From Acidobacteriota bacterium (GTDB taxonomy: Bacteria; Acidobacteriota; UBA6911; RPQK01; JAJDTT01), in assembly GCA_022827025.1 (NCBI GenBank), contig JAJDTT010000280.1, positions 1 through 53,529 of the forward strand: a stretch of 53,529 nucleotides of DNA, given 5' to 3'. Shown one piece after another: positions 19,155 through 42,686 of the stretch. A program made the position numbers and the translations under genes. The notes below the pieces were generated by a model. It saw nothing but the letters and a program-made list of their open reading frames with translations. It was not told where the DNA came from and searched no databases. Within the stretch, counting starts at the first letter, position 1. The number at the start of each line of letters is the position of its first letter.

Positions 19155-20663
19155 ATGCGGAACCCCCAGTGTTTGCTGCTCTTGGCGTTGACCCTGCTGC
19201 TGCTTCCGTCGTGTCAGCCGGGTGCGCCGGCGGAGCCGGGCCCGATCCGGGAGATCGACTCCAGGGTGCAGCTCTTCGTGGACGACCACCTGGTCGCCGA
19301 CAGCGACCGGGTCTGGCGCTCCCTGACCGGGGCCTACAACACCCGCCCCCGGAAAGTGGCCGAAAACCCCATCATCAAGCCGGACCGCCCCTGGGAAGGG
19401 TACCTGGTGCTGCAGCCGGGCAGCGCGATCTACGACGAAGAGGAGCAGATCTTCAAGCTGTGGTACAACACGTTCGGCAAATCCAGGAACACCGACATCC
19501 GCGAGTTCCTCTGCTACGCCACCTCCAAGGATGGAATCCACTGGGAGAAGCCCGAGCTGGGCATTGTGGAGTTCCGCGGTTCCAAGGCCAACAACATCGT
19601 CCTCGACTGGGTCAGTTGGAACCACGTGGTCCTCAAGGAGCCCGACGACCCCGACCCCGACCGCCGGTACAAGATGGCCTACTGGCAGCACCATGACCGG
19701 CCCCGGCACGGCATCTGGGTCGCGTTCTCGCCCGACGGTCTGAACTGGACCGATTACGAGAACAATCCGGTGGTTCCCATCTGGGGCAGCGGCGACACCT
19801 TCGGCCTGATGCGGGATCCCGGGACGAAACAGTACTGGCTCTACCACAAGACCAGCCCCGGCGGACCGCGCAAGGTGTCGCGGCTGGTGAGCGACGACTT
19901 CATCCATTGGCGCGACAGCCGCTTCGTCCTGGAGCCGGACGAGCTGGACCCGCCCCACACCGAGTTCTACGGGGTCTCGGCCTTTCCGTACGGGTCTCAC
20001 TACCTGGGTTTGATCTGGGTGTTTCATACCGACATCCAGACCATGGACGCCCAGTTGGCTTCGAGCGTGGACGGCGTGAACTGGGAGCGGTCCGTTTACC
20101 GCCGGCCCTTCATGGTCCTGGGCTACCAGGTCAACGGTTACGGCGGGAGCAGCTTCGACAGCGGGATGGTGTTCCCCATCTCGACGCCCGTGGTTCACGA
20201 CGGAGAGGTCTGGATCTACTACTCCGGGTTCGACAACCTCCACAACGCACCCGCGGCCGACCACAAAGGACAGATCGGACTGATGAAGATCCGGCAGGAC
20301 GGCTGGGCCGCGCTGGACGCCACGGCCGAGGGTCACGTCACCACGCACCCGCTCCGCTTCGAGGGGAGCACCCTGAGAGTCAACGTGGAGTTGCTGCCCG
20401 GGGGCAAGGGAGGGGCGGACGCGCCGTGGAAGGACATCTTCAATGACGACCCGGACAACAACGGCTACCTGCGGGTCGAGCTTCAGGACCAGAACGGCAA
20501 GACCATGCCGGGATACGGCGCCGCGGAATCCAAGCTGAGCGAGAAGGAGGGCGTCTATCGGACGGTGAGTTGGGAAGGGGGCGACCTGAGTGGCGTGACG
20601 GGTCCGGTCCGGCTCAAGTTCGTCTACAGCCGCGCCCGGCTCTATTCCTTCCAGATCAATTAG
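19155..20663 (+). CDS. Lipoprotein beta-propeller, GH32/GH43-like fold (paralogue 1 of 7)
   Basis: 502 residues. The lipobox LLLLPSC puts the lipid-bearing Cys at about residue 17. The conserved opener SRVQLFVDDHLV is followed by propeller blades with the motif KDGIHWEKPELGIVEFRGSK, then NNIV. The C-terminal about 110 residues form a beta domain (GYLRVELQDQNGKTMPGY) ending in RLYSFQIN. Five proteins in this window share that terminus. The fold resembles five-bladed glycosidases, but no assigned family or activity was recognised. Predicted location is outer membrane or periplasm. GAGGAGGG before ATG 19155 and the lipobox decide the start; the longer frame runs upstream without such signals. 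Confidence 0.8.
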   Translation: MRNPQCLLLLALTLLLLPSCQPGAPAEPGPIREIDSRVQLFVDDHLVADSDRVWRSLTGAYNTRPRKVAENPIIKPDRPWEGYLVLQPGSAIYDEEEQIFKLWYNTFGKSRNTDIREFLCYATSKDGIHWEKPELGIVEFRGSKANNIVLDWVSWNHVVLKEPDDPDPDRRYKMAYWQHHDRPRHGIWVAFSPDGLNWTDYENNPVVPIWGSGDTFGLMRDPGTKQYWLYHKTSPGGPRKVSRLVSDDFIHWRDSRFVLEPDELDPPHTEFYGVSAFPYGSHYLGLIWVFHTDIQTMDAQLASSVDGVNWERSVYRRPFMVLGYQVNGYGGSSFDSGMVFPISTPVVHDGEVWIYYSGFDNLHNAPAADHKGQIGLMKIRQDGWAALDATAEGHVTTHPLRFEGSTLRVNVELLPGGKGGADAPWKDIFNDDPDNNGYLRVELQDQNGKTMPGYGAAESKLSEKEGVYRTVSWEGGDLSGVTGPVRLKFVYSRARLYSFQIN

Positions 20664-20735
20664 CGGCGCCTTTGCACCGCATTCAGCCTGTTGCCGGCGA
20701 ACGTGACCCGGCCGTCGGCGGAGCGGAGGAAATCA

Positions 20736-21290
20736 ATGACGCAACGATTCGCCACTCTGGATCAACTGCACGAGTCGCTGGATTCCATTCTGGCGTCTCC
20801 CCGCCGGGAGGGCCGGGTGGAGGCCATCACCGCCTGCCCGTCCACCAACGTCCGCAACTCCATGGAAGAAGCCCGGCTTTCACCTGAGGGCGGCCTGGAA
20901 GGGGACCGCTGGCAAAAGACCTGCTGGCGCAAGCTTCCCGACGGCAGGTCCGATCCCAAGGTGCAATTGACCCTCATTAATTCGCGCCTGCTTTCCCTGA
21001 TCGCCGGCAGCCGCGACCGCTGGTCCCTGTCGGGAGACAACCTGGCGGTGGACATGAACCTCACCGAGGAGAACCTTCCCGTCGGCACCCGGTTCCGGAT
21101 CGGTGAGGCGTTGGTTGAGGTTTCGGAGCTGCCACACACGGGCTGCAAGAAATTTGCGTCCCGTTATGGCGCCGATGCCCTGAAATTTATCAGCCAACCC
21201 GATTCGAAGGGCCTCCGGCTGCGTGGATGCTACGTCTTCGTGGTCGAGGCCGGCCAGATCCGTATTGGCGATCCCATCCGCAAGCTGTAG
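20736..21290 (+). CDS. MOSC domain protein
   Basis: 184 residues from the ATG at 20736, preceded by GGAGGA. The MOSC fold is recognisable in the blocks VEAITACPSTNVRNS, LTLINSRLLSLI, WSLSGDNLAVDMNL, LPVGTRFRIGEALVEVSELP and HTGCKKFASRYG. The conserved Cys lies in HTGCKKF. MOSC proteins handle molybdenum-cofactor sulfur or detoxify N-hydroxylated substrates. This is a single-domain form. It lies between two secreted propeller genes but lacks a signal peptide, so it is probably cytosolic and may be unrelated to them. Confidence 0.85.
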   Translation: MTQRFATLDQLHESLDSILASPRREGRVEAITACPSTNVRNSMEEARLSPEGGLEGDRWQKTCWRKLPDGRSDPKVQLTLINSRLLSLIAGSRDRWSLSGDNLAVDMNLTEENLPVGTRFRIGEALVEVSELPHTGCKKFASRYGADALKFISQPDSKGLRLRGCYVFVVEAGQIRIGDPIRKL

Positions 21291-21303
21291 CCGGGGCATG
21301 CGA

Positions 21304-21324
21304 TATGCCGCCATCGGCGGCATA
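21304..21324 (+). terminator. Stable hairpin after the MOSC gene
   Basis: TATGCCGCC-ATC-GGCGGCATA forms a perfect 9-bp stem with a 3-nt loop, 13 bp after the MOSC stop. No U-tract follows, so it could be a weak terminator or a 3' mRNA stabiliser rather than a full intrinsic terminator. Confidence 0.45.
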
Positions 21325-21407
21325 GAGATGTACACGCCGACCGTCTCTAGGTTACCCTTAGACATCTTTTCTTTCTCCTGTGCCTGTCATCATCGATCCA
21401 TTCCGGC

Positions 21408-22418
21408 ATGAACAGGCGTAAATTTGTCTATGCAACGACGTTGTCGCCTCTACTGGGGGCGACGACCGGGATGAGGCCCTCGACCCACTTTCAGGGCCAG
21501 AGGTGGAGGAAGCTGAAGCTCATCTTTCCCTGCCACGATGAAGGCGGCTGGGACCGGCGTCCGTCCGCTCCTCACGTCGTCCGGGCCGGCGATCAGTTGC
21601 GCATGTACTACATGAGCATCGAGGGTCAGCGGAGGCGAATCGGGCTTGCGGAAGCTGACATTTCCGATCCCCTGAGTTGGAGGAAAGCTTCGAACCAGCC
21701 GCTTTTGGACTTCGGTGCGCCCGGGTCGATCGATTCCCACTGGGTGAGTTATCCCTGGGTGGTTCCCGTCACCGAGAACCACTGGCACATGTATTACTGT
21801 GGTTGGGGCGGAGACTATCACTCCTTCGGCAAGTTCAAAGCCTATCGGACCACGCTGGCCGAGAGCGACGACGCCGGCCTGACCTGGAAGCGAAGCGGCC
21901 GGTCCCTGCTTGAATTGGGGAGGCCCTTTTCCTGCGACGAGCACGGCACGGGTTCCTGCGCCGTCATGAAGGTCGGTTCGCAGTATTGGATGTGGTATAC
22001 GGCCGTCGTGCGCTGGCCTGAGGCGAACAGCAGGATTTCCATTGCCCTGGCCGTTTCGAACGATGGGGGCCATACCTTCAGGCCACATCCCGCGGGGGCG
22101 CTGATCAGTATTCCGCCCAGGCTTGACTCCTACTTCTCAACCTGTTCCAAGCCTTTTGTGGAGAAGGCTCGGAGCGGCTTTCGAATGTGGTTCAGCGTAG
22201 TAAAAGACCATCGCCGTCTCTACCGGGTTCACTACGCCGAGAGCCCGGACGGAATACGGTGGAAGTGGTGGCCCGACCCGGTTCTTGAGGTCAGTGAGTC
22301 GGGTTGGGACAGCGAAATGACCTGCTATCCTTCCATTTGGCACTCTGCGGAACACACCTATCTGTTCTATGACGGCAATCGCTTTGCTGGGATCGGAGTG
22401 GCAGAGTTGGTGGATTGA
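21408..22418 (+). CDS. Tat-exported short beta-propeller, GH43/GH130-like (paralogue 2 of 7)
   Basis: 336 residues. The N-terminus MNRRKFVYATTLSPLLGA carries a twin-arginine-like signal (RRKF). The body is only a propeller, with blades such as HWHMYYCGWGG, SDDAGLTWKRSG, YWMWYTAVVRW, SNDGGHTFRP and ESPDGIRWKWW. It lacks the C-terminal LYxFQF domain of its relatives. The repeated D-G-x-x-W pattern fits five-bladed glycosidase or phosphorylase folds, but acid/base residues cannot be assigned by eye. It converges on the next gene with only 6 bp between stops. Confidence 0.75.
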   Translation: MNRRKFVYATTLSPLLGATTGMRPSTHFQGQRWRKLKLIFPCHDEGGWDRRPSAPHVVRAGDQLRMYYMSIEGQRRRIGLAEADISDPLSWRKASNQPLLDFGAPGSIDSHWVSYPWVVPVTENHWHMYYCGWGGDYHSFGKFKAYRTTLAESDDAGLTWKRSGRSLLELGRPFSCDEHGTGSCAVMKVGSQYWMWYTAVVRWPEANSRISIALAVSNDGGHTFRPHPAGALISIPPRLDSYFSTCSKPFVEKARSGFRMWFSVVKDHRRLYRVHYAESPDGIRWKWWPDPVLEVSESGWDSEMTCYPSIWHSAEHTYLFYDGNRFAGIGVAELVD

Positions 22419-22424
22419 AGAGAC

Positions 22425-24179
22425 TCATCGAGCGGATGCGTAGAAGCGCAAGTCATCGAGAGCGCCTTTGAAAAACCTGCCCATGTCGTGGGTCATGTCC
22501 CGGCTCAATGGTGCTCTGTTTTGGACGGGCTTCTGAAAATCCAGCTCCGCCCCTATCGAGAGAATGGAACGGCCCGTTCTCCTTCCGCCCGGGTGAGCCG
22601 ACCCTGCAACGAGCTGCCCGTCCAGATAGAGGCTGATCTTGGCGGCCGCTTCACTGTATTCCGCCTGGATGTGCTGCCACTGCTGCAAGACGATTGGCCG
22701 GGAACCCCGGCACCGAGTGAAGCCATCGGCAGCGTCCGACCTTCCCACTTCGAAGAAAGGGCGTCCCCGGCCATCGATCCCGATACGCCATTCCCGGCTC
22801 GGAAAGCCCGAAAACATCCCTTCCACGTTCGACTTGCTCACCAGAGCCTGGGGGCGGCTCACGTCGCCGGGCCACAGATAAAACGAGATCCTGAAGCTTG
22901 TGCGCCCAAGCAGCGGCATGTGGTGAGCCCACAAAAAGTCATCCTGACCGTCGAACTCGTAGGCCGTTCCCATCTCTGGACGGGCACCCGGTCGCCCCAC
23001 CACGGCACCCTCGTTCCGGCCCCGGTGCCCAAACACTGTCTTGTCTTCCACTTGGCTGCCCCCGGATTCATCCAGAGGCCAGTGACAGACCAGACTGTCT
23101 GAGGGTGACCCGTCAAGGTATCCGAAGCCGTAGGCGATGGCACCCACGTACCTGGCGTTGGTCCGGCCTCCTCGTTCCCGTACCCCGTTCCACCACATCT
23201 GAACCCGGCCGTCCGGCAGGATCAAGACGCCTGGCTCATAGGATGCCCAGTTGTCCCAACTGAATGGAGTCGTCGCTGCCAGGGGATTCGCCGCCCCGGG
23301 CGTAAAGTGGAGTCCATCCCGGGAAACGGCATACCCGAGATTGTAAGGCGCCGACCAGGTGCTGCAGAACAGATAATACAAACCTCCATGCCGGACGACA
23401 CAGGGACCCGCCAACCCGCGGGCCGGCTGCCAGGCGTCGCGGGCATTCCAGGCAGGAGTGTGGTTGCCGTCCTCATCGGCGGGAACGGTGAAGTCGACTC
23501 CGTCAGGGGAGACGGCATAGCCGATGTGGTCGAAGTTACCGGAAGTCTCGGCCTGAAAGTACATGATGTAGCCTCCTTCAGGCCGTTCGACGACGGAAGG
23601 TTCGCTGGCGGTGAGAATCGGCAGGCCGTTGATCTTCTTGCCCTCCAACTGCGCCGCACCCAGGACCAGACGGTAATTTTTCCAGTGAGTCCCGTCAGGA
23701 CTGTCGGCGTAGCCGATCTGCTCGATGCCGTTGGCCGAAAAGTACATCCGGTAGAGACCTCCCTGCTTGAAGCCCCAAGGCTCCAACACCTCCTTGTTGC
23801 ACCAGGGGTAGTCCGGGTTGGGGAGGAAGCGTCGAGCAGGATCTTTGATCCAGTGAACTCCGTCGCGGGAGGAGGCATAGGCGATCGTCCACCGGTGTCC
23901 GGCGTCATAGGGGGGATATTCGATGGCTTCGTACCACATCTCGTAGAGGCCATCGACCAACTGCACACAGGGCTCGCCCAAGTAGCCCTCGTCGTACGAG
24001 CCGGGCGGTCCATTATCAAGAACGGGGCTCGGATACTTGAATATCTCCAGCCTGGGTACACCCTGTCCGGCGCCTTGCTCCTCCAGGCCGGGGTCCGCGA
24101 CACAGCCTGTGAGCAGTGAAGCCGTGAGCGTGAGAGTTGCGCCTACGATGGGGATTCGGGCTGACCTCCGGGCGGGCAC
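22425..24179 (-). CDS. Lipoprotein beta-propeller with C-terminal LamG domain (paralogue 3 of 7)
   Basis: 584 residues from a GTG at 24179 with GGAGAGG just upstream. This start gives a good lipoprotein signal (MPARRSARIPIVGA to LLTGC). Residues about 40-370 are propeller blades (GLYEMWYEAIE, SRDGVHWIKDP, SPDGTHWKNYR, SRDGLHFTPG). Residues about 380-584 are a LamG/concanavalin-like domain, starting VCHWPLDESGG and including AYEFDGQDDF, ISLYLDGQLV and FKGALDDLRFYASA. A carbohydrate-binding role for LamG is known in the superfamily; the ligand here is unknown. A longer upstream frame starts at 24446 but its first 89 residues look non-coding. Confidence 0.78.
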   Translation of the reverse strand: MPARRSARIPIVGATLTLTASLLTGCVADPGLEEQGAGQGVPRLEIFKYPSPVLDNGPPGSYDEGYLGEPCVQLVDGLYEMWYEAIEYPPYDAGHRWTIAYASSRDGVHWIKDPARRFLPNPDYPWCNKEVLEPWGFKQGGLYRMYFSANGIEQIGYADSPDGTHWKNYRLVLGAAQLEGKKINGLPILTASEPSVVERPEGGYIMYFQAETSGNFDHIGYAVSPDGVDFTVPADEDGNHTPAWNARDAWQPARGLAGPCVVRHGGLYYLFCSTWSAPYNLGYAVSRDGLHFTPGAANPLAATTPFSWDNWASYEPGVLILPDGRVQMWWNGVRERGGRTNARYVGAIAYGFGYLDGSPSDSLVCHWPLDESGGSQVEDKTVFGHRGRNEGAVVGRPGARPEMGTAYEFDGQDDFLWAHHMPLLGRTSFRISFYLWPGDVSRPQALVSKSNVEGMFSGFPSREWRIGIDGRGRPFFEVGRSDAADGFTRCRGSRPIVLQQWQHIQAEYSEAAAKISLYLDGQLVAGSAHPGGRRTGRSILSIGAELDFQKPVQNRAPLSRDMTHDMGRFFKGALDDLRFYASAR

Positions 24180-24417
24180 CGTCCTCTCCGGGTTCTTCCT
24201 TATCGGCCAGTTGAGAGACACGATAGCATCAAGGCCTTTCAATGCCCGCCCGGAACCGGAATCAGAACGAAGTAGCGTGGGACCGGCACATCGCGACGGC
24301 GAGGGGAGACCTTGCGGCTCTTGGCAGCCCGTGGAAAAAAGCCCAGGAATTGGGGGGGCTGGAGTATTCAGTCTGATCAGGCAGGGGAATGGTTTGAGAA
24401 CGAGTCCGGGCGGCCTC

Positions 24418-26058
24418 TCAGCCACCGGCCTCTGCCGCCAATTCAAAGGCCTCGGAGACTCGAACCTCTCTCTCCTGGATCAGATCCTTCACCGTCACGG
24501 TGATCTCATAGCTTCCCGGCTCAAAGCTCTGAAGGGAGATGGGCAGAACCAGCACCACTCTCTGCTCGGAGAGATATTGTATCGACTTGCCAATGACGTC
24601 GATCAGTTGCGCGACCGGATGTCCATCCTTTGCCACCCGGTACATGACCCTCAGTGAAGGCCTCATCGAGGTCTGATCCAGGGCAACGTTGTAGACCTGG
24701 AGATAACAGTTGAGTTTCTCCGAGGGCCGGAAGACTTTGTCCAGGCTCGGTCGAATGTGCAGGTCCCCCAGAACAAACATCGCATGGCGCTCCGGGGCGC
24801 GCTCCAGTCGGTTGATTCGATTCGAGAGCAGAATCGAGCTGGCTGAAAGCTCGGACCGGTGAGGCGGTGGAATCAAGACCAGACGGCGCACACCCACGCG
24901 CCCACTGTTGAGATCCTTGATGATCAGGTCCAGCTTGTAGCGGCCTTTTCGTTCCAGCACCAGAACCCTTTGATAGACGGAGCGGGCGGTCCGGGCCCGA
25001 TAATCGCTCACCAGATCAGCTTCGAATTCGTCCACAATTCGATTCGACAAATTGGTTACGATTCCATATACGGCCATGCGCGCCCGTCTTCCAGTCTTTT
25101 CCTCACCGAAGGTGAGCTCACGATCGGGGATTTCGACACTGACCGGTACCAGGGCGCGCGTCTCGTCGAGGCCGAAATAATCGACCCGGTGAGAAAAGGG
25201 AAGGTCCTGGTAAGTGACGTCGATTTCCACCAGGCGTTTCAAGTCACGATGTTTGAAGGGCTTGGCACGCCGGATTTTAGTGAACGTTTCATAGCGGTCG
25301 AAGGCGGTGTCCCTGGGTCGAAAGCTTCGGAGATTGGCGTTTCCGGCCGACGTGAAGGTCGTCCCTTCCAGGGATTCGTCGCGCTGAATCATTTCGGCGA
25401 TCGTATTGCCTGCGCCGGCCACATTGAGCAGGGCATCCTTCTCGTCGGGGTTGAGGGCGAGCCGGTATTCCCCACTCCATGAAGGGTCTACGAACTCCAG
25501 GATGACATCGGAACCCAGGCCTTCTATGAAGCGGTACCTCCAGACTTCAAACGGATGAGTTACGGTTGTTCCTCCCCCCTCTTCCAGGGGTCGCTCGTAC
25601 CTTCCGCCAGAGGGATGCGCTTCGATCTCGTCGGGTGGCCCGTGAATGATGTAGATGCGGCCTCGATCGTTCATCCATCCGGGAAAGCCGCTGGCAAATC
25701 TCTCGTTGGCGTAGGCGATCCGGCGATAGTGTTCTTCCTTGAACTCGTTGGCGGCGCTGCGCGGATCCGGATCTCTTTGAAACCAGAACTGTTCGATGAA
25801 CTGCTCCTTTTCTTCCGGGGCGGTCAGACTCTCGAAAACTGAGCGCTCTTCCTTGGAGATCACGTAGACCACGTCCTCGTCCAACCAGCGTTGAAAGTAG
25901 TCTTCCGCCTCCTCTTTGAGCTGACGTTGAGGCGGGGACTTCCTGGACTGGTTCTCCTGGGCTCCAGCCTGGATCGGAACCTTCGGCAGACAGGACAGGA
26001 AAAGAGCGATCAGCAGTCGACAGAGAATTCTTTCAAGAGAAAGAATGGGGGGGCTCAC
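24418..26058 (-). CDS. GWxTD domain-containing secreted protein
   Basis: 546 residues with an N-terminal signal (ILCRLLIALFLSCLP). The GWxTD domain (about 45-200) shows the usual blocks: WLDEDVVYVISKEER, FIEQFWFQRDPDP, NEFKEEHYRRIAYANERF and RGRIYIIHGPPDEIE. The name-giving motif is altered to GWMND (127-131). The C-terminal half is beta-rich and extracellular-looking. The domain is particularly frequent in Acidobacteriota and relatives and has no known function. It lies between two minus-strand propeller genes and is likely co-transcribed with the upstream one (gap 82 bp). Confidence 0.88.
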   Translation of the reverse strand: MSPPILSLERILCRLLIALFLSCLPKVPIQAGAQENQSRKSPPQRQLKEEAEDYFQRWLDEDVVYVISKEERSVFESLTAPEEKEQFIEQFWFQRDPDPRSAANEFKEEHYRRIAYANERFASGFPGWMNDRGRIYIIHGPPDEIEAHPSGGRYERPLEEGGGTTVTHPFEVWRYRFIEGLGSDVILEFVDPSWSGEYRLALNPDEKDALLNVAGAGNTIAEMIQRDESLEGTTFTSAGNANLRSFRPRDTAFDRYETFTKIRRAKPFKHRDLKRLVEIDVTYQDLPFSHRVDYFGLDETRALVPVSVEIPDRELTFGEEKTGRRARMAVYGIVTNLSNRIVDEFEADLVSDYRARTARSVYQRVLVLERKGRYKLDLIIKDLNSGRVGVRRLVLIPPPHRSELSASSILLSNRINRLERAPERHAMFVLGDLHIRPSLDKVFRPSEKLNCYLQVYNVALDQTSMRPSLRVMYRVAKDGHPVAQLIDVIGKSIQYLSEQRVVLVLPISLQSFEPGSYEITVTVKDLIQEREVRVSEAFELAAEAGG

Positions 26059-26140
26059 ACCCTGATTCTACACCAAGCCTGAAGACGCTGGAATTGCTTG
26101 TCTTCGCCCCAATTCGAGATCCCGGGACGTTTTCGTTGTT

Positions 26141-28867: not shown

Positions 28868-29107
28868 TTGATCCTCCCCTGGCAGCCTGTCTCCTCCAGG
28901 GCAGCACTGAGCCCTGTTCTGGTACACTCTGAGTTTATAAGGCGGTGCTCACGTAGTTCCGTAAGTCATTGTTAATTAAGAACTTATAGCATAGAATCCG
29001 GCCTATATCCAGCTTTCCGGTGAGAAACGCCGGTCAGGAGGCCGGGCTCGACGATCCGAAGAGTATTTCAGGACCGAAGAATGTCATCATCGCAGAGGAG
29101 ATGGAGA

Positions 29108-32376: not shown

Positions 32377-33900
32377 CTACTCGGGATTCCTTCCGCCGGT
32401 CAGTCGGAAGTAGATCTCCCTTTCCCTTTCGGCTTCCTGAACGGCCCCGATTCTAGGCAGCGTAGTGGCAAGATTCAGGTGAGGGATGGGGTCATCCGGA
32501 TCTATTTCTATGGCCCGGCGATAAGACTGGACCGCACCCTGAAAGTCATCCTGCTTGAAAAACAGATTGCCCAGGAGGTTGTGGTAATCCGCATTCGTCG
32601 GGTTCAAGCCGATGGCCGTCTTGACGGCGTCGAGGGAGCCGGCTGCATCAGTCTGCTCCAGGAGTCCGGCCAGCACGAAGTGGTAGCGTGCGTCAAGCGG
32701 ATATACCTGGATCGCCTGGCGAATCCAATCGGCCGCACGTTGGCTGTTGCCCCTTCTGGTATCGATTTGGGCCAGGCGATAGTAACCCAGGTCCATGTGG
32801 GGGGAAGCCTCAACGGATTCCAGAAAGGCCGCATAGGCCTTCTCCGGCGCAGCTTGCTTGGACATGAGGTCCATTCCCTGCGCGTAAAGCCTGGGGCCTC
32901 TGTTCTGCACGGCCAGCCTTTCCCGGGCTGTTTTCCTCAGGAATCGGAATCGTTCCAGAGCGGCCGCCGCTTTCTCCTTCATCCCCAGTTTTCGATAGGC
33001 ATCAGCCAGCAGAAAATGGGGCTCCACATAGTCCGGGCTGCCTTGCAACGCCAACTCCAACTGTTCAACCGCTTTCTCATGCTCTCCCAGTTTGAGGAGC
33101 ACAAAGCCCAGGTTCTTGCGAACATCCGGTCGAACCAATCCTGACGAGACAGCCGTTTTCAGATTCTCGACGGCCCGGCCGAAGGTCTTGTGATCGGCGC
33201 TGTAGAGCAAGCCCAATTCCAAGTGGGCCTCGGCGAGCGAGGGAGCCAGGGCAACGGCCTGCTCCAATGCATCTTTCGCGTCCTCGAATTGCATCAGCCC
33301 CTTATGGCTGACTCCCAAGAGGTAATGTCCGTAGCTGTCACTGGGGTCCAGCATCAGGCCTTTCCGAGCTGAAGCCAGTGCTTGATCAAACTGGCCCTCC
33401 TGGATGTAAATTCGGCACAGGAAGCGAATCCCGGGGAGAGACTTCGGATGTCGTTCCAGAAAGGTCTGGAGCACTTGAATGGCTTCTCTAGCTTGCTTAC
33501 AGTGGAACAAAATCGAGGCCAGGGCCAGCGAATAAAGGTCTGAATCCTCATCCAGGCTCCTGCTTTTCCAATACTGGGCAATGGCTTTCCGGAATTGGTT
33601 TTGGGCCTGGTAGAGGATTCCCAGTTGATAATTGAGCATGGGATCTTGTGGATTCGAGCGGAGACGATCCTGCAACAGCCGTACAGCCCGCTCTGGTGAT
33701 TCCTGCTCAAACGCCCACTTGGGGAGCGTCTGGTTCGCCGCCCCGCAGATTTCTCGTGAGCGGACGGCGAATGAATCGCCTGGTCGATTCTCCTGAGACC
33801 AGGCTCCGGCCCCAGCCTGAAAAAGGAAGACCAGCAGGCTGGACACTGAAATCCTGGGCGAGAACAGAATTCTCGAAAAGGACGGGTTTTCCCCCAACAT
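32377..33900 (-). CDS. Secreted TPR-repeat protein
   Basis: About 507 residues from the ATG at 33900, which gives an export signal (ISVSSLLVFLFQAGAGAWSQE). It has roughly ten tetratricopeptide repeats, for example DPMLNYQLGILYQAQNQFRK, DSYGHYLLGVSHKG, AEAHLELGLLYS, PHFLLADAYRKLG and ADYHNLLGNLFFKQDD. It has no enzyme domain and should scaffold proteins in the periplasm. Its stop immediately abuts the ATG of the ASPIC/UnbV gene, a pairing seen repeatedly in Acidobacteriota and Planctomycetota. An upstream frame from 33981 would precede the signal with 27 unlikely residues. Confidence 0.86.
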   Translation of the reverse strand: MLGENPSFSRILFSPRISVSSLLVFLFQAGAGAWSQENRPGDSFAVRSREICGAANQTLPKWAFEQESPERAVRLLQDRLRSNPQDPMLNYQLGILYQAQNQFRKAIAQYWKSRSLDEDSDLYSLALASILFHCKQAREAIQVLQTFLERHPKSLPGIRFLCRIYIQEGQFDQALASARKGLMLDPSDSYGHYLLGVSHKGLMQFEDAKDALEQAVALAPSLAEAHLELGLLYSADHKTFGRAVENLKTAVSSGLVRPDVRKNLGFVLLKLGEHEKAVEQLELALQGSPDYVEPHFLLADAYRKLGMKEKAAAALERFRFLRKTARERLAVQNRGPRLYAQGMDLMSKQAAPEKAYAAFLESVEASPHMDLGYYRLAQIDTRRGNSQRAADWIRQAIQVYPLDARYHFVLAGLLEQTDAAGSLDAVKTAIGLNPTNADYHNLLGNLFFKQDDFQGAVQSYRRAIEIDPDDPIPHLNLATTLPRIGAVQEAEREREIYFRLTGGRNPE

Positions 33901-34100
33901 ATGTTGACAATTTCCAGAAGGCTGGTGGTGAAAGCCCCGCGACCGCACGCGGCTTTCACCACGCACTGCCCAAGCATACAACTGTGGCGGTCGATTTAGC
34001 CATAAATTCGGGTAGAGCCGGTGCCGTCGATATGATCGACCAACAAGTTATTCATATCCATACCGCATAGCCGTCTTCCACGACCAGGAGGGAACATCCC

Positions 34101-36227
34101 ATGAAGCCGCATGCAGCACCTCTTCTGTTTGGCGTCTTGTCGGTTATAGCGACGGCAGACGCTTTGGCAGAGTTCAAGGCCGGGGCAGCGGTGGTGGACG
34201 TGACACCCCTGCAGCTCCCTGTTGTCGTCAACGGCGGCCTTGTCAGCCGCACCGTCGACAAGGTGAAAACCCCATTGAATTCGCGGGCGATCGTGCTGGA
34301 CGATGGCCGGGTTCGTCTCGGCATCGTGGTTGTCGACAGTTGCTTGATGCAGCGTCCCTTCCTGGATGAGGTGAAGCAACTGGCGGCGCGGCGAACGAAG
34401 ATCCGAGCCGATCGAATGCTCATCTCGGCGACGCATACGCACTCCGCGCCGTCGGTCGCGGATAGCATGGTGCACCCTGATCCCACATATTTGCCGTATC
34501 TTCCAGGGAGGATCGTTCAGGCCCTGGCCGAGGCGGAAGCGAACCTCGAACCCGCTCAAGTGGGCTGGGCCGTCGTGAACGCCGAGAAATTCACGGCCTT
34601 GCGGCGCTGGATCCGCCGGCCGGATCGAATTGCCGACGACGTGTTCGGCAATCCCACCGTGCGCGCGAACATGCACGCCGCCAGCAACTGGGATGACGTC
34701 ACCGGCCCTTCGGGTCCGGAGGATCCCGAACTGTCGCTGATTTCGTTTCAATCTCTCGACGGCCGCCCGATCGCGGTGCTGGCCAACTTTTCCATGCACT
34801 ATTTTTCGGGTGAGCAGGGTCTCAGCGCGGATTATTTCGGATTGTTCTGCGAAGGGCTGAAGTCCCGTCTTGGCGACCGGCATGACGAAAGCGATCCTCC
34901 CTTCGTCGGGATCATGTCACACGGCTGCAGCGGCGACATCTGGCGGCGCGACTACGCAAAGCCCCCGGCCTCCAGGTATGAGCCTACGATCGAAGGTTAC
35001 TCGGCGGAGATGGTGGACCTCGTCCTGGGCGCCTATGGCACGATCGAATATCGCGAGGATGTGGACCTGGCCATGGCTGAGAAGCGACTGGAGCTCAAGT
35101 ATCGCGTCCCGGACGAACAACGCCTGAAGTGGGCGCGTCAAATCGTCGAAGCGATGGGAGATCGGATCCCCAAAGTGAGCGTGGAAGCCTACGCACGCGA
35201 GCAAATCGTAATGCATGAACGGCAGTCGACCGAAATCGTGGTTCAGGCCCTCCGCATCGGCGACATCGCAGTCGCAACGACTCCCACGGAAACCTATGCC
35301 CTCACCGGCTTGAAGCTGAAGCTGCAAAGTCCGCTGCCGAAGACCATGGTCATGGACATGGCCAACGGCGCCGATGGCTACATTCCGCCACCCGAACAGC
35401 ATGTTCTCGGAGGCTACAACACCTGGGCGAAACGAGGCGCCGGACTGGAGATCGATGCCGAGCCGAAGATCACCGAAGTCGCGCTCCAACTGTTGGAAAA
35501 AGTCGCAGCCGGGGCCCGGCGTCCCTTCAAACAGAGCCGGGGTCCCGCCTTCGAAGTCCTCCTGAAAGCCGGACCAGCGGCCTACTGGCGACTCGATGAA
35601 TTCGGCGGTTCCCGTGCCCTGGATTCGTCCGGTCAGGATCGTGACGCGCTGTACGAGCCGGGTGTAGCGTTCTTCCTCGAGGGTCCGCGCTCGGAGAATT
35701 TCAGCAGGGGGAACGAGCAGAATCGAGCGGCCCACTTTGCGGGAGGACGGCTGCGGGCACGAATTCCCGATCTGGGTGATCGGTATTCCGTGGCCCTCTG
35801 GTTCTGGAATGGCATGCCGACAGATGCTCGAGAGATCAGCGGCTGGATCTTCTCACGCGGCCGCGACTATGGCCTGGAAGGCGACCACCTTGGCCTGGGA
35901 GGCACGAGTCATCCGGGTAAACTGACCTTCCTCCGCGGTGAGAACGGCGAGGGAGGAACGCTGGTGGCGGGTCGTACGGAGATTCAGCGCTGGAGTTGGA
36001 ATCAGGTTGTGTTCGTACGCGACGGTGAAGCAGTGCGGGTTCATTTGAATGGAAGGCGCCAGCCCGAGATCGAGACCGAGTCACCCGCAGATTTTCCCGT
36101 CCCGTTCGACCATTTGTTCTTCGGCGGCCGCTGCGATGGTCAGTCCAATTGGGAGGGCCGGCTCGATGAGGTGGCCGTGTTCGACCGGGCCCTGTCAACT
36201 GAAGAAATAGAGAAAATGGCTCATTGA
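34101..36227 (+). CDS. Neutral-ceramidase-like hydrolase with C-terminal LamG domain
   Basis: 708 residues with GGAGGGAA before the ATG and a signal peptide (LLFGVLSVIATADALA). Residues about 25-450 match the neutral/alkaline non-lysosomal ceramidase N-terminal domain: KAGAAVVDVTPL, the zinc site SATHTHSAPS (THTH 111-114), and a further His in NFSMHYFSG (H233). A MSHGCSGD loop is also present. Residues about 490-708 are LamG-like (AYWRLDEFGGSRALDSSG, VHLNGRR, FEGRLDEVAVFDRAL-type end). Bacterial members cleave amide or ester bonds in lipids or are uncharacterised. LamG suggests targeting to a surface glycan or glycolipid. It sits among the secreted propeller genes. Confidence 0.82.
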   Translation: MKPHAAPLLFGVLSVIATADALAEFKAGAAVVDVTPLQLPVVVNGGLVSRTVDKVKTPLNSRAIVLDDGRVRLGIVVVDSCLMQRPFLDEVKQLAARRTKIRADRMLISATHTHSAPSVADSMVHPDPTYLPYLPGRIVQALAEAEANLEPAQVGWAVVNAEKFTALRRWIRRPDRIADDVFGNPTVRANMHAASNWDDVTGPSGPEDPELSLISFQSLDGRPIAVLANFSMHYFSGEQGLSADYFGLFCEGLKSRLGDRHDESDPPFVGIMSHGCSGDIWRRDYAKPPASRYEPTIEGYSAEMVDLVLGAYGTIEYREDVDLAMAEKRLELKYRVPDEQRLKWARQIVEAMGDRIPKVSVEAYAREQIVMHERQSTEIVVQALRIGDIAVATTPTETYALTGLKLKLQSPLPKTMVMDMANGADGYIPPPEQHVLGGYNTWAKRGAGLEIDAEPKITEVALQLLEKVAAGARRPFKQSRGPAFEVLLKAGPAAYWRLDEFGGSRALDSSGQDRDALYEPGVAFFLEGPRSENFSRGNEQNRAAHFAGGRLRARIPDLGDRYSVALWFWNGMPTDAREISGWIFSRGRDYGLEGDHLGLGGTSHPGKLTFLRGENGEGGTLVAGRTEIQRWSWNQVVFVRDGEAVRVHLNGRRQPEIETESPADFPVPFDHLFFGGRCDGQSNWEGRLDEVAVFDRALSTEEIEKMAH

Positions 36228-36318
36228 TCGCCAACCGGCGCGCCTTCACTCCTCGACCCGTTGGAAGGCGTAGAACTTGGCGTGGTCAAGATGGGATTAC
36301 AACTGAATGGGAGTGCCA

Positions 36319-37875
36319 ATGAACCCGATAAGAAGAAGAGAGTTCCTGCAATCTACGGCACTGGGGCCCGCGGTCCTGGCTCCCGTGACTTCCTCCGCCG
36401 GCAAGCGCGAGCCGAAAACCTTGGTCCACATCGGCTCCCGGCGGGAGCTGTTTGTCGATGACTTTCTCATCGAACGTTTGGAGGGGAAGGCCGAACAGCG
36501 GTTGCACCACCCCATTCCGCGTGAGATCGCACTTGTTCACGACGCACCTTGGGAAGGCACCAGCAGTGGTTACCATACGGTTTTTCAGGATGGCGACCAC
36601 TACCGGATGTACTATCGGGGGTCACAGCTTGAAGTGATAGACGGCCGACTCGTCACGGATCGCCACAGGACGGTCTATTGCTATGCGGAAAGCCGGGACG
36701 GAATCGGGTGGACGAAACCGGTTCTCGGCCTGTTCGAGTTCAACGGTTCGAAGCAGAACAACATCGTGTGGGACGGTGTGGGGATTCACAACTTCACACC
36801 GTTCAAAGACCTTCGCCCGAACTGTCCTGCCGAGGCCCGCTACAAGGCGCTGGGCGGACTTCAGTCAGAAGGCGGCCTTTTTGCGTTCAAGTCGCCCGAC
36901 GGTATCCATTGGTCGCTGATAAGCGACAATCCGGTCATTACCAACGGAGCGTTCGATTCTCAGAATCTGGCTTTCTGGGATCCGACACTGGGGAAATACC
37001 GCGCTTACTGGCGGACTTTCACCCGGGGGATCACGACGAAAAAGGTCTGGAAGCCGGCCGGCCACCGAGCCATCCGCACGGGATCGTCCAGCGACTTCCT
37101 CAACTGGGGTGACGAAGCCGACCTGGTTTACGAAGACTCGCCCGACGAGCATCTCTACACGAATCAGATCAAACCCTATTACCGGGCACCGCACATCCTG
37201 ATCGGCTTTCCAGTGCGTTATGTCGAACGTGGCTGGTCCGATTCGATGCGTGCCTTGCCGGAGCGTGAACACCGGGAACTGCGAGCCCGGGCCCACTTGC
37301 GATACGGCACGGCGATCACGGAAGGGCTCCTCATGGCCAGCCGGGACGGCGTGAGATTCAAACGGTGGAACGAAGCCTTCCTGCGTCCCGGAATCGAGCG
37401 GCAGGACATTTGGAACTATGGCCATCAATTCGCGGCTTGGCACGTCGTCGAAACGAAGTCGGCACTCAAGGGAGCGCCGAACGAACTGTCGCTGTACGCG
37501 TCGGAGGGCGGCTGGACCGGGAACAGTTGTGCGATTCGGCGGTACACACTTCGCCTCGACGGCTTCGTCTCGGTGAGTGCCCCCATGAGCGGCGGCGAAC
37601 TGGTGACGAAGCCGCTGACCTTTTCCGGACAGGAACTTCACCTGAACTTCGCCACCTCTGCTGCCGGGAGTATCCGCGTCGGATTCCGACGTCCCGACGG
37701 ATCGCCGGTACCGGGGTTCTCAATCGCGGACTGCAATGAGGTCTTCGGCGACACGCTTGACCGTACTGTCACCTGGCAATCCGGCAGCGATGTCCGCGGG
37801 TTGGCCGAAAAGCCGGTCCGGCTGCACTTCGAACTGAATGATGCGCATCTGTATGCGTTTCAGTTTGTGAATTGA
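36319..37875 (+). CDS. Tat-exported beta-propeller, GH32/GH43-like (paralogue 6 of 7)
   Basis: 518 residues from the ATG at 36319; GGGAG lies 5 nt upstream, and an ATG at 36307 would add 4. IRRREFLQS is a Tat motif. It is the closest relative of paralogue 5, sharing GSRRELFVDDFLIE, DGIHWSLIS, VITNGAFDSQNL, MASRDGVRFKRWNE and GAPNELSLYAS along the full length. The C-terminal beta domain ends LYAFQFVN. Duplication followed by separation around 4-6 kb is likely. The catalytic role is unassigned. It lies 91 bp after the ceramidase-like gene on the same strand, so co-expression is plausible. Confidence 0.8.
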   Translation: MNPIRRREFLQSTALGPAVLAPVTSSAGKREPKTLVHIGSRRELFVDDFLIERLEGKAEQRLHHPIPREIALVHDAPWEGTSSGYHTVFQDGDHYRMYYRGSQLEVIDGRLVTDRHRTVYCYAESRDGIGWTKPVLGLFEFNGSKQNNIVWDGVGIHNFTPFKDLRPNCPAEARYKALGGLQSEGGLFAFKSPDGIHWSLISDNPVITNGAFDSQNLAFWDPTLGKYRAYWRTFTRGITTKKVWKPAGHRAIRTGSSSDFLNWGDEADLVYEDSPDEHLYTNQIKPYYRAPHILIGFPVRYVERGWSDSMRALPEREHRELRARAHLRYGTAITEGLLMASRDGVRFKRWNEAFLRPGIERQDIWNYGHQFAAWHVVETKSALKGAPNELSLYASEGGWTGNSCAIRRYTLRLDGFVSVSAPMSGGELVTKPLTFSGQELHLNFATSAAGSIRVGFRRPDGSPVPGFSIADCNEVFGDTLDRTVTWQSGSDVRGLAEKPVRLHFELNDAHLYAFQFVN

Positions 37876-37916
37876 AGAGCCCCATATCCTGCTGAGCCGG
37901 TGAAAACCTCCGTTGA

Positions 37917-38996
37917 TCAGGGAGTTTGTTTTTCCAGCCGCCATCCCGATCCGTCAGCGCCGAGGGCTCTGTGTCCTTTGTAGCGGTCATTCACGGCGTG
38001 CATTTCGGCGATGCTGTCAAAGTAGCCGACGATGAAGGCGGCGCTGAAGGATTCGCCGGCCTTGACCGGCCAGCCTCCGATCTCCTCGATGAAGATCACA
38101 ATCCCGGGCCGCTGGTTGCACCACGCCTCGTAGACGACGGAGGGATCGAGCGTGATCCCTGCCAGCCACGGACCCTGTTTGCCCGTCTTCGGGTCGCGCA
38201 AGCGGTATGCGCGGATGAAATGCTCCGGCATTTCGTGCGTGTCTCGCCGGTAGTTGAATTTTTCATCGGGCGGGAAGACGTCGTAGAACTCGCTGGGCGG
38301 GATACGCAGCCCGCCCGGTCCACCCAGGTAACTGAGGTAGATCTCGCTGAACGTCTCACCGCGCTGGTGGCGGACACAGCCCGGCATGTCGATGCGGAGG
38401 AACATTTCGTCCGAGTCGTTGACGCTGTCGATTCTGTCCATCGAGAAGAAGTAGCGCTTGCCTTTCGGAAACACCAGCAGCTGAGTCCATCGCGATCCGG
38501 CGTTGTAACCGGGGGCGGCGTGTTGGTAGCGGTAGGTCGTCCTTACGGCGACGAAATCTTTGCCCCGGATCACCTCGGGTTGTACGGGCTTCATCCTGTG
38601 GCAGAGCTGGGGCCCTTCGATGATGCGCTTGGCCCGCTTACCGTGTTTGTCGTTGTTGTACAGATACCGAACGGTCTTGGCGCCCTGCTCCTGCCAGGCC
38701 GCGTCGCTGCCGGGCTCCATGATCCAGTCCACAATGCACAGCCCGTCGCCGGCTTCGCGGAAGCCGGTGCCCTTATCGAGAAACGATCCCTTTGCGATGC
38801 CGGTCATCCACTGCTTGGGGTTCTTCTTGGGGATGACGGCTTCGAGTTGGCCGGTCTCGATCTTGATGGTGTCGTCGTCCTCGGTAATGCGGGCCCACGG
38901 CCCCGTACCCGCCGGCCCGGCCAGCAGCGTTCCGGCGCTGGCCAGCGCCATGAGAGTCAGGACCATCAGCGGTTTGGATGAGCGATGAGTTGGCAT
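37917..38996 (-). CDS. Uncharacterised secreted protein
   Basis: 359 residues with AAAAGGAAC before the ATG and a signal peptide (LMVLTLMALASAGTLLA). The mature protein is beta-rich with many aromatic and charged loops (FVAVRTTYRYQHAAPGYN, RYFFSMDRIDSVND, FIEEIGGWPVKAGES). It ends in a stretch with AFIVGYFDS and DRYKGHRA. I do not recognise a family; a mutarotase-like or other carbohydrate-active beta-sandwich is only a guess. It sits in the middle of the exported-protein island, convergent with paralogue 6 and 41 bp from its stop, so a shared process is plausible. Confidence 0.7.
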   Translation of the reverse strand: MPTHRSSKPLMVLTLMALASAGTLLAGPAGTGPWARITEDDDTIKIETGQLEAVIPKKNPKQWMTGIAKGSFLDKGTGFREAGDGLCIVDWIMEPGSDAAWQEQGAKTVRYLYNNDKHGKRAKRIIEGPQLCHRMKPVQPEVIRGKDFVAVRTTYRYQHAAPGYNAGSRWTQLLVFPKGKRYFFSMDRIDSVNDSDEMFLRIDMPGCVRHQRGETFSEIYLSYLGGPGGLRIPPSEFYDVFPPDEKFNYRRDTHEMPEHFIRAYRLRDPKTGKQGPWLAGITLDPSVVYEAWCNQRPGIVIFIEEIGGWPVKAGESFSAAFIVGYFDSIAEMHAVNDRYKGHRALGADGSGWRLEKQTP

Positions 38997-39311
38997 GGAT
39001 GTTCCTTTTTTATTCTTGCAACTGATGGACTTCCTTGCACTGAAGAGTGGCCGGAAAACTGGTCGAGCTTCGATTGGCCCGGAAATGGGAAATATTCCTT
39101 TCCTTCCAGTTTCTCATAAACCGAGGAGAATATGGGTGTTGCCACTGAGAATGCCAGACGGTCAGCATCCGGTTTCTTATCCCCCCTCGAAAGAGCAACT
39201 GCTTCGACGGAACTTCTGGTCCGGAGTTGGGGACCGGACAGTGTAGAGAGGTATACTGTCGATGGTCCAACGGTCGAAATGGAAGTCTTGTTGAAGGCCG
39301 CGCGAAATTCC

Positions 39312-40949
39312 ATGTCTCTTCCGGGCCGGCGGCTGGTCTGCGCCGGGATTTTTCTGCTCGGCCTCATTTATTGCGCTCACTCGAGCCGCGAGGCCTCCCT
39401 TTCAGTTCGCATCCTCGATGCCGGCACCGGTCAACCCACGCCGGTGCGGGTCTTGCTGGCGGACTCGGACGGCAACACTCCCCGGGTCACGGGCGCCTTG
39501 GCGGTCTCGGAATCGGCGCTCCCCATTCCGGACGCCGCGATTCCGGTCATGTACGGGCGCTACGATCGTGCGGAAGGGTATCTGCTCCAGCCCGACGGCT
39601 CCTTCTACGTCGATGGATTCTTCGAGGCGGAACTGCCCCCGGGGCCGTATTCGCTCAAGCTGTCCAAGGGATATGAGTTCGTCGCGCAAACCGTGAAGCT
39701 CGATCTCAACCCGGGCGGGAGCCTTTCCCGAGAGTACAAGCTGGAGCGATGGATCGACATGCCCCGGCGTGGCTGGTACTCGGGGGACGATCACATTCAC
39801 CTGCGGCGGTCGCCGCGCGACGATCCGGCCATTCTTCGCTGGGCGGCGGCAGAGGATGTGCACGTGTCGCATCTTCTCCAGATGGGGGACTTCTGGGCGA
39901 CTTATTACTCTCAATACGCTTGGGGCGGCAGGGGCCGTTACCGCGAAGGGGACTACATTCTCTCGCCCGGTCAGGAAGGCCCCCGGACGCCCGAGATCGG
40001 TCACACTATTTCGCTCGGGGCGGAAGAGTTCGTCCGATTTCGGGACGACTACTACAACTACGGCCGTGTTTTCGACCAGGTGCACGAGCTGGGAGGCATT
40101 ACCGGCTTCGCCCATCAAGCGATGACCTTTCACGGTTATCGTGGAATGACACTCAACGTATTGCGAGGGAAGCTCGACTTTCTCGAGGTGATGCAGTTCT
40201 GTCCGCGGGAAGGGCCGCTGGCGCTGAAGCACTATTATCATTTCCTGGATCTTGGATATCGGCTTACGGCGTTAGGTGGCTCGGATTTTCCCTGGTGTGG
40301 GCGAGGACCTCGCTTCGGCCTGGAAGAGGGGTGTTCGCAGATCGGCGACGCCCGATTCTATACTTATACCGGTGATCGCCTCTCGTTCGACCGCTGGCTG
40401 CAGGGCGTAAAGGCAGGCCGCACCTTCGTTACCAGCGGACCGATGCTGGAGTTTACGGTGAATGACCGGCTTCCCGGCGCAACGGTGGATGTCGAATCGG
40501 GGACAGTAATCAGGATCTCAGCCAAAGCCTACGGGAAGGCGTCTCAAATTCCCTTACGTCAACTGGAAATCGTAGGACATTCGAAAACGTTGAAGAAAGT
40601 GTCTGCGGGGGAGCCGGGACAGAGTGAAGAGTTGCTCTCTATCGAGATGGAGCTGCCGGTGGAACGTGGGATCTGGGTCGCCGCCCGGACCGATGCCGCC
40701 CACACCCAAGTCGCCCATACGACGCCCGTCTACGTCGGAGTGAACGGAGCGGGCTTCCACAACCCGGCAACGGCTGATCACAACCTTGAACTGTGCCGCA
40801 GCTATCTGAGTGAGTTGGAAGAGGAATTGGCCCATCCGGGGGAAAGAAACGACAGCCAGGCCGTCCGGCACAAACAGAACCTGGAACGGCAGATCATTGA
40901 AACCAGAGCCGCGCTGAAGCACCTGGCCTCGCGTCTGGGCCGGGAATGA
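39312..40949 (+). CDS. CehA/McbA-like PHP-domain metallohydrolase, exported
   Basis: 546 residues from the ATG at 39312, which begins a signal-like segment (LVCAGIFLLGLIYCAHSS). A beta domain (LSVRILDAGTGQPTPVRVLL) precedes the PHP hydrolase domain. Metal-site motifs are HIH (161-163, GDDHIHLRR), His 268 in GFAHQAM and Asp in LGGSDFPW. A C-terminal FTVNDRLPG segment resembles CehA-type proteins. These hydrolyse carbamates or phosphoesters, with the native substrate usually unknown. An alternative ATG at 39132 has its own GAGGAG; it would put 60 residues ahead of the signal and is less likely. That leaves 38997-39311 without an assigned gene. Confidence 0.8.
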   Translation: MSLPGRRLVCAGIFLLGLIYCAHSSREASLSVRILDAGTGQPTPVRVLLADSDGNTPRVTGALAVSESALPIPDAAIPVMYGRYDRAEGYLLQPDGSFYVDGFFEAELPPGPYSLKLSKGYEFVAQTVKLDLNPGGSLSREYKLERWIDMPRRGWYSGDDHIHLRRSPRDDPAILRWAAAEDVHVSHLLQMGDFWATYYSQYAWGGRGRYREGDYILSPGQEGPRTPEIGHTISLGAEEFVRFRDDYYNYGRVFDQVHELGGITGFAHQAMTFHGYRGMTLNVLRGKLDFLEVMQFCPREGPLALKHYYHFLDLGYRLTALGGSDFPWCGRGPRFGLEEGCSQIGDARFYTYTGDRLSFDRWLQGVKAGRTFVTSGPMLEFTVNDRLPGATVDVESGTVIRISAKAYGKASQIPLRQLEIVGHSKTLKKVSAGEPGQSEELLSIEMELPVERGIWVAARTDAAHTQVAHTTPVYVGVNGAGFHNPATADHNLELCRSYLSELEEELAHPGERNDSQAVRHKQNLERQIIETRAALKHLASRLGRE

Positions 40950-41009
40950 CTCTGCCCGCGGCTTTGAGCGCAACGCACCTACCGCCCGGACTTCTTGCCG
41001 GAGGCCCTG

Positions 41010-42686
41010 TCACTGCCTGAACTGGAAGGCGTACAAGTCGGTGTCATTCATGACGAACCGCAGTTTGACCGGCTTTCCGGCGAGACGACTCACGTCCGGC
41101 TGCCTGTGCCAGGTGACAATCCGGTTCATCTCGTTGGTGGTGTGAATGCGGTCGCAGTCCGCCAGTCGAAAGCCTTCCAGGGGATTGTCGAACTCGTCCA
41201 GTATTTCTACCCTGAGCGTGCCCAAGGCTGAGGTGTCGACGTTCAAGACCAGCTCCCGACCCTCGAATTTCAGGACGGGGGTGGTGAACTGCCCTCCCGG
41301 GTAAGATGCTCGAACAGAGATAAACCCGTCCCTCCGCAGAACCAGCCGGCTGAGGGCTCGAATATTCCGAATGGGACCCAGCCCCTCCCTTCGAACCGCT
41401 TCGCTCTGAGGCTGAAAGCCCCAGGCATGTATCTGATCGCTGCCGCTGTAGTACATGTACATCTCGCGCCCGTTGAGAGCGGGAACCAGGCCGAGAATCA
41501 TGTAATTGGACTTTGAATCGAATTCGCCTTTCATGCCCAGGTCCACAAAGGCGCGGCGGTCATACCGGTGCCAGTCGATTCCATCCCGGCTTGCGGCAAA
41601 ACGGATGTCCAGCGGTCCCGTGTTGGCAGCCGTCTGGCCTTCCCGGGGCATGGTCTCTCCTTTCTTGTCCCAGAAAGATTCGAAATCGTAGACTGAATCG
41701 TTTTCGAACTCGCGGAGGAACCGGCTGTGGTAGTGGTAATAGGCCGAGGGGAACATGTAGTAGGCGTCCTGGGCCCAGGGATACTTCACAGTGGCATTCG
41801 TATACAAATCCATGACCTGGACATTACGCTCTTCCCTCGAATCGTAGTGGTGGGGATCCAGGTGATCGACAGCCAGTACGACAGGCGTGACTTCGGCATT
41901 CATGAACCGTTCGAGATGGTCCGACTCGCTGCGGGCCACGGCCCTGCCCTGGGATCCGGGAGGACGCAGATTTCGCCGGATGTAGGCCGCGTATTTGCGG
42001 ATGCGATCATCCCAAAAGATCACATTTGGGGAATCCAGGTGGTGCTTCTTCGACTCGAAAACGATGACGGATTTGCGGGTGAGGCTCCAGTGGATTCCGT
42101 CCGGGGAAGAAAACAGGTGCAGGGCGGAAGCGGGGAGCGCAGGGGGGTTTCTGACGTAAGCCAACTGGCGAAATCTCTCTTCGGCAACTGCGTTGGGGTC
42201 CAGAAACACAGTGGTGCCAATGAGTCCCTCTTTGACGCCTCCGGCACCGTAGCCAAGAACGATGTTGTTCTCCTTGCTTCCGAAGATCTCGGCCAGACCC
42301 AGCATGGGCTTTTCCCAGTGAATCCCGTCCTGGGAGCGTGCATAAGCCAGACTCTGAAACCTCCCTTTATTCCACATCGGTTCGCCGGTGTCGGGATCCC
42401 TCTGCTTGGGAGCCCTGGCGCCGTACCAGAGGTGGTAGACATCCCCTGCCTTGATGACGGTGGAGGAGCCGGAGATTACGGTTTCCCAGGGGTGTTCCGG
42501 CGCAATCGTGAGTTCGTTCGTCTTGACCGGCTGGTGAACGACCAGCTCGACGCCATCGGAAACCTCCAGAAAGCGCCCGTCGATGAAAACCTGCCTTCGG
42601 CTGTCGACGTCCAGAGGGTTGCTCTGGGCAGGCAGGGCCGTCTGAGCCGCCAGCGTAGCCAGCAGGGCGAACCATATCGCTCGCAT
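41010..42686 (-). CDS. Exported beta-propeller, GH32/GH43-like (paralogue 7 of 7)
   Basis: 558 residues with GGAAGGAG before the ATG and a Sec signal (IWFALLATLAAQTALPAQS). It shows the shared N-terminal block SRRQVFIDGRFLE and the blade motif SQDGIHWEKPMLGLAEIFGS, then NNIV. It then has SSPDGIHWSL, SRDGIDWHRYD and MYMYYSGSDQ. The C-terminal beta domain (LRVEILDEFDNPLEGFRLAD) ends LYAFQFRQ. It is more divergent than paralogues 5 and 6 and has a longer central insertion (about 230-330). It lies downstream of the TonB-receptor gene on the same strand, behind a hairpin terminator. Confidence 0.8.
   Translation of the reverse strand: MRAIWFALLATLAAQTALPAQSNPLDVDSRRQVFIDGRFLEVSDGVELVVHQPVKTNELTIAPEHPWETVISGSSTVIKAGDVYHLWYGARAPKQRDPDTGEPMWNKGRFQSLAYARSQDGIHWEKPMLGLAEIFGSKENNIVLGYGAGGVKEGLIGTTVFLDPNAVAEERFRQLAYVRNPPALPASALHLFSSPDGIHWSLTRKSVIVFESKKHHLDSPNVIFWDDRIRKYAAYIRRNLRPPGSQGRAVARSESDHLERFMNAEVTPVVLAVDHLDPHHYDSREERNVQVMDLYTNATVKYPWAQDAYYMFPSAYYHYHSRFLREFENDSVYDFESFWDKKGETMPREGQTAANTGPLDIRFAASRDGIDWHRYDRRAFVDLGMKGEFDSKSNYMILGLVPALNGREMYMYYSGSDQIHAWGFQPQSEAVRREGLGPIRNIRALSRLVLRRDGFISVRASYPGGQFTTPVLKFEGRELVLNVDTSALGTLRVEILDEFDNPLEGFRLADCDRIHTTNEMNRIVTWHRQPDVSRLAGKPVKLRFVMNDTDLYAFQFRQ

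Follow-up and report, generated by a model that had tools for sequence, protein, structure and literature searches.

The window analyzed here, the whole 53,529-nucleotide contig JAJDTT010000280.1 of an Acidobacteriota bacterium (assembly GCA_022827025.1), harbors seven open reading frames (ORFs) with repeated DGxxW motifs, P1 to P7, which an initial annotation had described as exported propeller proteins resembling glycoside hydrolase (GH) families 32 and 43. All seven were found within the interval it had given, 19155-42686: P1 (19155..20663, + strand), P2 (21408..22418, +), P3 (22425..24446, -), P4 (26141..28927, -), P5 (29081..30673, +), P6 (36307..37875, +) and P7 (41010..42686, -). The DGxxW motif occurs 15 times in these proteins, compared to a mean of 0.74 and a maximum of 6 in shuffled sequences (n = 2000), and an opener of the xSRRELFVDD type was found in exactly four of them (P1, P5, P6 and P7), both in agreement with what had been reported. 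The DGIHWxKPxLG...NNI block, which had been ascribed to most of the proteins, is likewise real, its count being four of seven, namely the same P1, P5, P6 and P7. The N-termini also fit the proposed export, being Tat-like in P2, P5 and P6, lipobox-like in P1, P3 and P4, and Sec-like in P7, as classified by eye from the sequences rather than by a signal predictor. No RNA feature of the window scored above the gathering score.

The seven proteins had been treated as one set, a view that stands for five of them. A hidden Markov model (HMM) of the family matched P1, P4, P5, P6 and P7; for P1, P5, P6 and P7, which were part of the profile's source alignment, this match is by construction, whereas P4, which lay outside the alignment, was matched at E = 6e-32 over residues 460-933, i.e., its family domain (~460-933) follows an extra N-terminal part of ~440 amino acids. 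P5, P7 and P1 were linked to P6 also by single-sequence search. P2 and P3 gave weak, piecewise matches to the HMM, ruling out a single family of seven and leaving five family members plus two separate propellers of the GH137/GH130 type. Divergence within the window is considerable: P5 and P6 are 61% identical, and every other pair of window members 24-34% (P7 is 33-34% identical to P5 and P6).

The fold was modeled for P6 and P2. The P6 model, built with 81 relatives, has a mean pLDDT (per-residue model confidence) of 92.2 and a pTM (whole-model confidence) of 0.88, and consists of a five-bladed propeller (residues ~66-423) followed by a strand-rich domain (430-521). The P2 model, built with three relatives (pLDDT 74.8, pTM 0.79), shows five sets of roughly four strands each and is likewise a five-bladed propeller, short and lacking the C-terminal sandwich. 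Thus, the five-bladed architecture that the initial annotation had anticipated was observed in both. P1, P4, P5 and P7 were assigned the P6 fold by homology through the HMM, P1 including the C-terminal sandwich, and P3 was assigned a GH130-like propeller by weak sequence matches to GH130 (3taw, E = 7e-4). The top structural matches of P6 were GH130 phosphorylases, with 9fj8 the best (Z 22.5, 15% identity, 268 residues aligned at a root-mean-square deviation of 2.8 A), closely followed by the N-acetylgalactosamine deacetylase 6n1a, BT_0996, GH43, GH62, GH159 and a levan fructotransferase (GH32-type), with many neighbouring rows of this list less than 1 apart in Z. Against sequences of the PDB, the family profile matched GH130 7fip (E = 3e-11), and an hhalign comparison of the family with GH130 gave 94.7% over residues 79-273. 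P2 matched best to BT_0996 (5mt2, Z 30.8), a protein bearing GH137, and then to GH130 and GH117 (Z ~28), a result that does not decide its family by itself because GH130 and GH43 share this fold. Taken together, assignment of the family to the five-bladed propellers of the GH43/32/130 superfamily is well supported.

Curated models, in contrast to these folds, recognize few of the proteins. P1 alone of the seven exceeds a Pfam GH cut-off, and narrowly so (GH32N, 25.9 bits compared to a gathering score of 22.1); P2 is sub-threshold for GH32N and P3-P7 do not match it. In Pfam and NCBIfam, P2, P3 and P7 have sub-threshold matches of the GH32/GH130/GH43 type (P3, which carries a clear Laminin_G_3 domain, scored 13.5 for Pfam GH43, not reaching the cut-off of 32.2), P4 has a weak BNR_4 match alone, and P5 and P6 matched no model. 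Among 82 family members scanned, none matched Pfam GH130, and the NCBIfam model NF052550 gave 19 weak matches (best E 2e-7), with P1 at 30.7 bits of the 450 needed. In the genome as a whole, searched at differing thresholds, Pfam GH43 gave no match at E 0.001, GH130 none in the searches run, and GH32N one weak match over the cut-off. Membership in GH32 or GH43 is therefore not borne out, with one weak GH32N match (P1) and none over the cut-off for GH43, and the standard libraries tested, Pfam and NCBIfam, hold no curated model for most family members.

The main find is larger than the window: within a single genus the family has radiated to ~110 copies, most of which Pfam and NCBIfam do not detect. 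A profile search of the host genome (5.33 Mb, a metagenome-type assembly of 318 contigs, 98.8% complete, contamination given as 1.1%) returned 131 matches. Once merged, these define ~112 loci, which are distributed over 73 contigs and span ~159 kb or ~3% of the DNA; 104 of the loci are full length, and their number is approximate, since some stop at contig edges. For comparison, the same genome has 25 sulfatases. Three congeners hold at least 128-150 matches each, while in a sample of the phylum 12 of 199 genomes have any member. The genome's own copies have a median pairwise identity of 30%, and the nearest paralog is at the median 53% identical, indicating that the radiation is old. In the family tree, the five window members are spread over separate deep branches, with P5 and P6 alone close together; the outside sequences added to this tree were chosen as best matches to P6, and it is therefore silent on which other branches came from outside. 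The local expansion initially proposed is thereby rejected in favor of an old, genome-wide one, the window members being mostly not tandem copies. The window holds five family members in 53.5 kb compared to 1.13 expected from the genome average (Poisson P = 0.006, for one preselected contig), but chance alone would yield ~0.6 stretches this dense in each genome, and contig C305, with about eight members, exceeds the window in density, so this local density is not exceptional. No viral relatives were found by tblastn, and open-access literature, in which absence proves little, yielded nothing specific to the family or to an expansion in sponge Acidobacteriota.

Conservation was compared across the 104 full-length copies. 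Fixed positions are mostly structural turns (S129, D131-G132, S196 and D198), together with W490. Nearly as well kept are a Glu or Asp at position 83 (96 of the 100 copies with a residue there), D51 (97%) and N152 (98%, again of copies with a residue there), and R254 (102 of 104, 98%); position 236 is Arg or Lys in 83%. Strand order would put E83 and D217 where the inner strands of blades 1 and 3 begin, on the side that bears the catalytic acids in GH43 and GH32. The initial annotation had proposed a check for conserved acids in the central pocket; judged from this strand topology, the candidates are an acid at position 83, kept in ~96% of the copies, and D217, kept in about two thirds. In the subclade of P5 and P6, 88 sequences from several phyla retain a complete set of acids. 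Pocket-side positions differ between subclades, whereas the structural Asp-box turns are fixed. E393 was considered as a catalytic Glu and rejected: situated where strand B begins and not on the pocket side, it looks structural, and a third of the copies lack it.

We judge it reasonably probable that this exported family, combining a propeller with a C-terminal sandwich, is one of enzymes acting on glycans, probably an unassigned glycosidase family. Its members would act on glycans outside the cytoplasm, presumably by an inverting mechanism, by analogy with GH43 and GH130, and would hold one sugar in the central propeller pocket; the candidate catalytic groups are the acid at 83 and, in most copies, D217. 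Since the copies differ in pocket-side residues, we take the expansion to reflect diversification to cover many linkages or decorations, and not dosage. An enzymatic role in glycan processing, as first suggested, is thus made likely by fold, export and glycan-type genes nearby, though as a prediction; the further suggestion of sequential hydrolases for one glycan is not supported, as members lie on 73 contigs among mixed neighbours and no evidence links them to a single substrate. More tentatively, and with the balance somewhat against it, these proteins could form a glycoside hydrolase family (or a member of a clan) that is new and has a catalytic set of its own. Its largest known radiation, the ~110 exported enzymes of a genus that has no GH43 or GH130 by curated models, would then be this genus's main glycan-degrading equipment.

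Several observations weigh against an enzymatic role. A tested activity was found for no member in anything searched, and D217 is an Asp in 67 of 104 copies, one group having the Asp one place later and another having none. The catalytic Asp142 of BT3780 sits in the EDPR motif of GH130 (PMC4599007); none of the seven proteins has an EDPR, and hhalign places it at P6 169-172, where there are no conserved acids, in a stretch where the alignment of the family to GH130 is weak. The GH130 counterpart of E83 is missing from the substrate-contact residues given for BT3780 (PMC4599007), which weakens the case for E83. As for the NDPNG motif of GH32, no NDP occurs in any of the seven, and some neighbours of the copies are unrelated to glycans (peptidases, methyltransferases and ABC genes).

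A different, rather unlikely account takes many if not most of the copies for glycan-binding or adhesion proteins without catalysis, the pocket being a lectin site and the expansion serving to recognize a wide range of glycans of hosts or the environment. It would explain why the strictest conservation lies in structural turns with no catalytic set, why about a third of the copies lack the candidate acids D217 and E393, and why motifs of known GH families are absent. It sits less well with the retention of the acid at 83 and of R254 in nearly all copies, with the complete acid set of the P5/P6 subclade across phyla, and with the sugar-catabolism-type genes nearby. A phosphorylase- or transferase-like activity in the manner of GH130, in place of hydrolysis, seems improbable: GH130 is the nearest match in both fold and sequence, and R236, aligned by hand to the Arg in the 'HR' motif of GH130, and the even better kept R254 fall, by hand reading of the alignments, near the place of the phosphate-binding residues of GH130 (three basic ones in its phosphorylases, its hydrolases having paired Glu), but the catalytic Asp of GH130 is unconserved, the arginine placement was made by hand, and most copies look exported. 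Phosphorolysis is rare outside the cytoplasm. That the propeller has carbohydrate esterase or deacetylase activity, as in 6n1a, is more improbable still, for although 6n1a is the fifth structural match to P6 (Z 21.7), it stands level with GH130 entries that are less than 1 away in Z, and no invariant metal-holding His runs through the family. Finally, an assembly or binning artefact mixing copies of several organisms, which a metagenome-type assembly of 318 contigs and the abundance of relatives in Planctomycetota and Verrucomicrobiota might suggest, is hardly credible and already contradicted by three other genomes of the genus with the same numbers, by the low contamination given, and by gene order, P1-P2-P4-P5 being kept in the congener locus L043 and P6-P7-receptor in L031.

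The neighbours named in the initial annotation are present: a neutral-ceramidase-like protein with a Laminin_G_3 domain (34101..36227, +; below the Pfam cut-off, 30.3 compared to 32.1), a CehA/McbA metallohydrolase of the PHP type (39132..40949, +) and a TonB-receptor-type outer-membrane barrel (OMP_b-brl_4) with a carboxypeptidase-regulatory domain (42847..46413, -). Beyond these lies a BNR_2 sialidase-like propeller (47789..49264, +; start probably near 48218). The order in L043 ('uncultured Acidobacteriota') is P1-MOSC-P2-GWxTD-P4-P5-CRTAC-TPR, without P3, and that in L031 ('Candidatus Aminicenantes COS4_bin_49') is P6-P9-P7-receptor, without the PHP gene, so that P3 and the PHP gene are either later insertions here or losses there. 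Between P6 and P7, an exported protein of 359 amino acids (37917-38996, -) has no Pfam or NCBIfam match; it is single-copy in the loci fetched and adjoins P7 in L031. In a congener, the P6 counterpart (G003 C42:151785-153314) carries one in-frame TAG and is either a pseudogene or a sequencing error. The 119 immediate neighbours of the genome's copies belong most often to the Pfam families BNR_2 (8) and sulfatase (4), followed, with three each, by DUF1501, dipeptidase M19, short-chain dehydrogenases, MR_MLE (enolase-type) and GFO_IDH_MocA; clustering of neighbours within two genes gave bigger sets, including seven outer-membrane receptors and six Planctomycete-type cytochrome proteins (named by eye). 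As raw counts, these neighbours fit sugar catabolism but take in peptidases and methyltransferases as well. On another contig, three related proteins of ~700 amino acids lie near a family member (L189:1768-11340).

Elsewhere in the window, enolase-superfamily (MR_MLE) genes, a type typical of sugar-acid dehydratases, lie towards either end (52-849, + and 46992-48128, +). Two similar xanthine/uracil-type permeases stand in tandem (4532-8255, +), each with an extra C-terminal domain of ~150 amino acids, and a row of phosphotriesterase-family, M24 peptidase, arylmalonate-decarboxylase-like and MFS genes (13895-18246, -) may form a small-molecule degradation operon. An exported, lipobox-like ankyrin-repeat protein (12211-13788, +; Ank_2, E = 1e-92) adjoins an iron-type ABC transporter set (8420-12112); ankyrin-type repeats are reported to be enriched in sponge-associated bacteria (PMC8163846). 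COS4, in the name of the relative at L031, may stand for the sponge Coscinoderma, a genus in that study, and a sponge habitat is only a guess.

With ~3% of the genome given to one family that lacks a Pfam or NCBIfam model, automatic annotation would show the genus nearly without GH32, GH43 and GH130. If the copies are enzymes, a large share of glycan turnover in such bacteria escapes current annotation, with the same blind spot in the Planctomycetota, Verrucomicrobiota and Poribacteria that carry the family. The copies also constitute a natural test set of ~100 pockets on a single scaffold.

Among known systems, GH130, comprising the beta-1,2-mannobiose phosphorylases Teth514_1788/1789 and the beta-1,2-mannosidases BT3780 and BACOVA_03624, comes closest, sharing the five-bladed propeller, a WE motif ahead of blade 1 and turns of the form S-x-DG-x-x-(W/F), and providing the best structural and profile matches. 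The family differs in that the Asp of EDPR is unconserved and the place of Asn74 variable, in having an additional C-terminal beta-sandwich and being exported, and in that no scanned member reaches the Pfam or NCBIfam GH130 cut-off. With GH32/GH68 (clan GH-J), it would share the layout of propeller plus C-terminal beta-sandwich, going by the strand-rich residues 430-521 of the P6 model, and P1 exceeds the GH32N cut-off, but NDPNG is absent in all seven. GH43/GH62 (clan GH-F) share the five-bladed propeller (Z ~20 to P6), while in P6 the position of their blade-1 Asp is taken by Y89 and in the family it varies (register read by hand). For P2, the top folds BT_0996 and GH117 come at low identity (18% and ~15%). 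Outside the genus, the same family is found, nearly full length and ~52-70% identical to P6, in Planctomycetota, Verrucomicrobiota, Poribacteria and other phyla; in genomes of other phyla and classes, picked for holding a P6 relative and hence biased towards carriers, we counted from 1 to at least 34 matches per genome (Planctomycetota reaching ~30), compared to the ~112 loci of the host genome.

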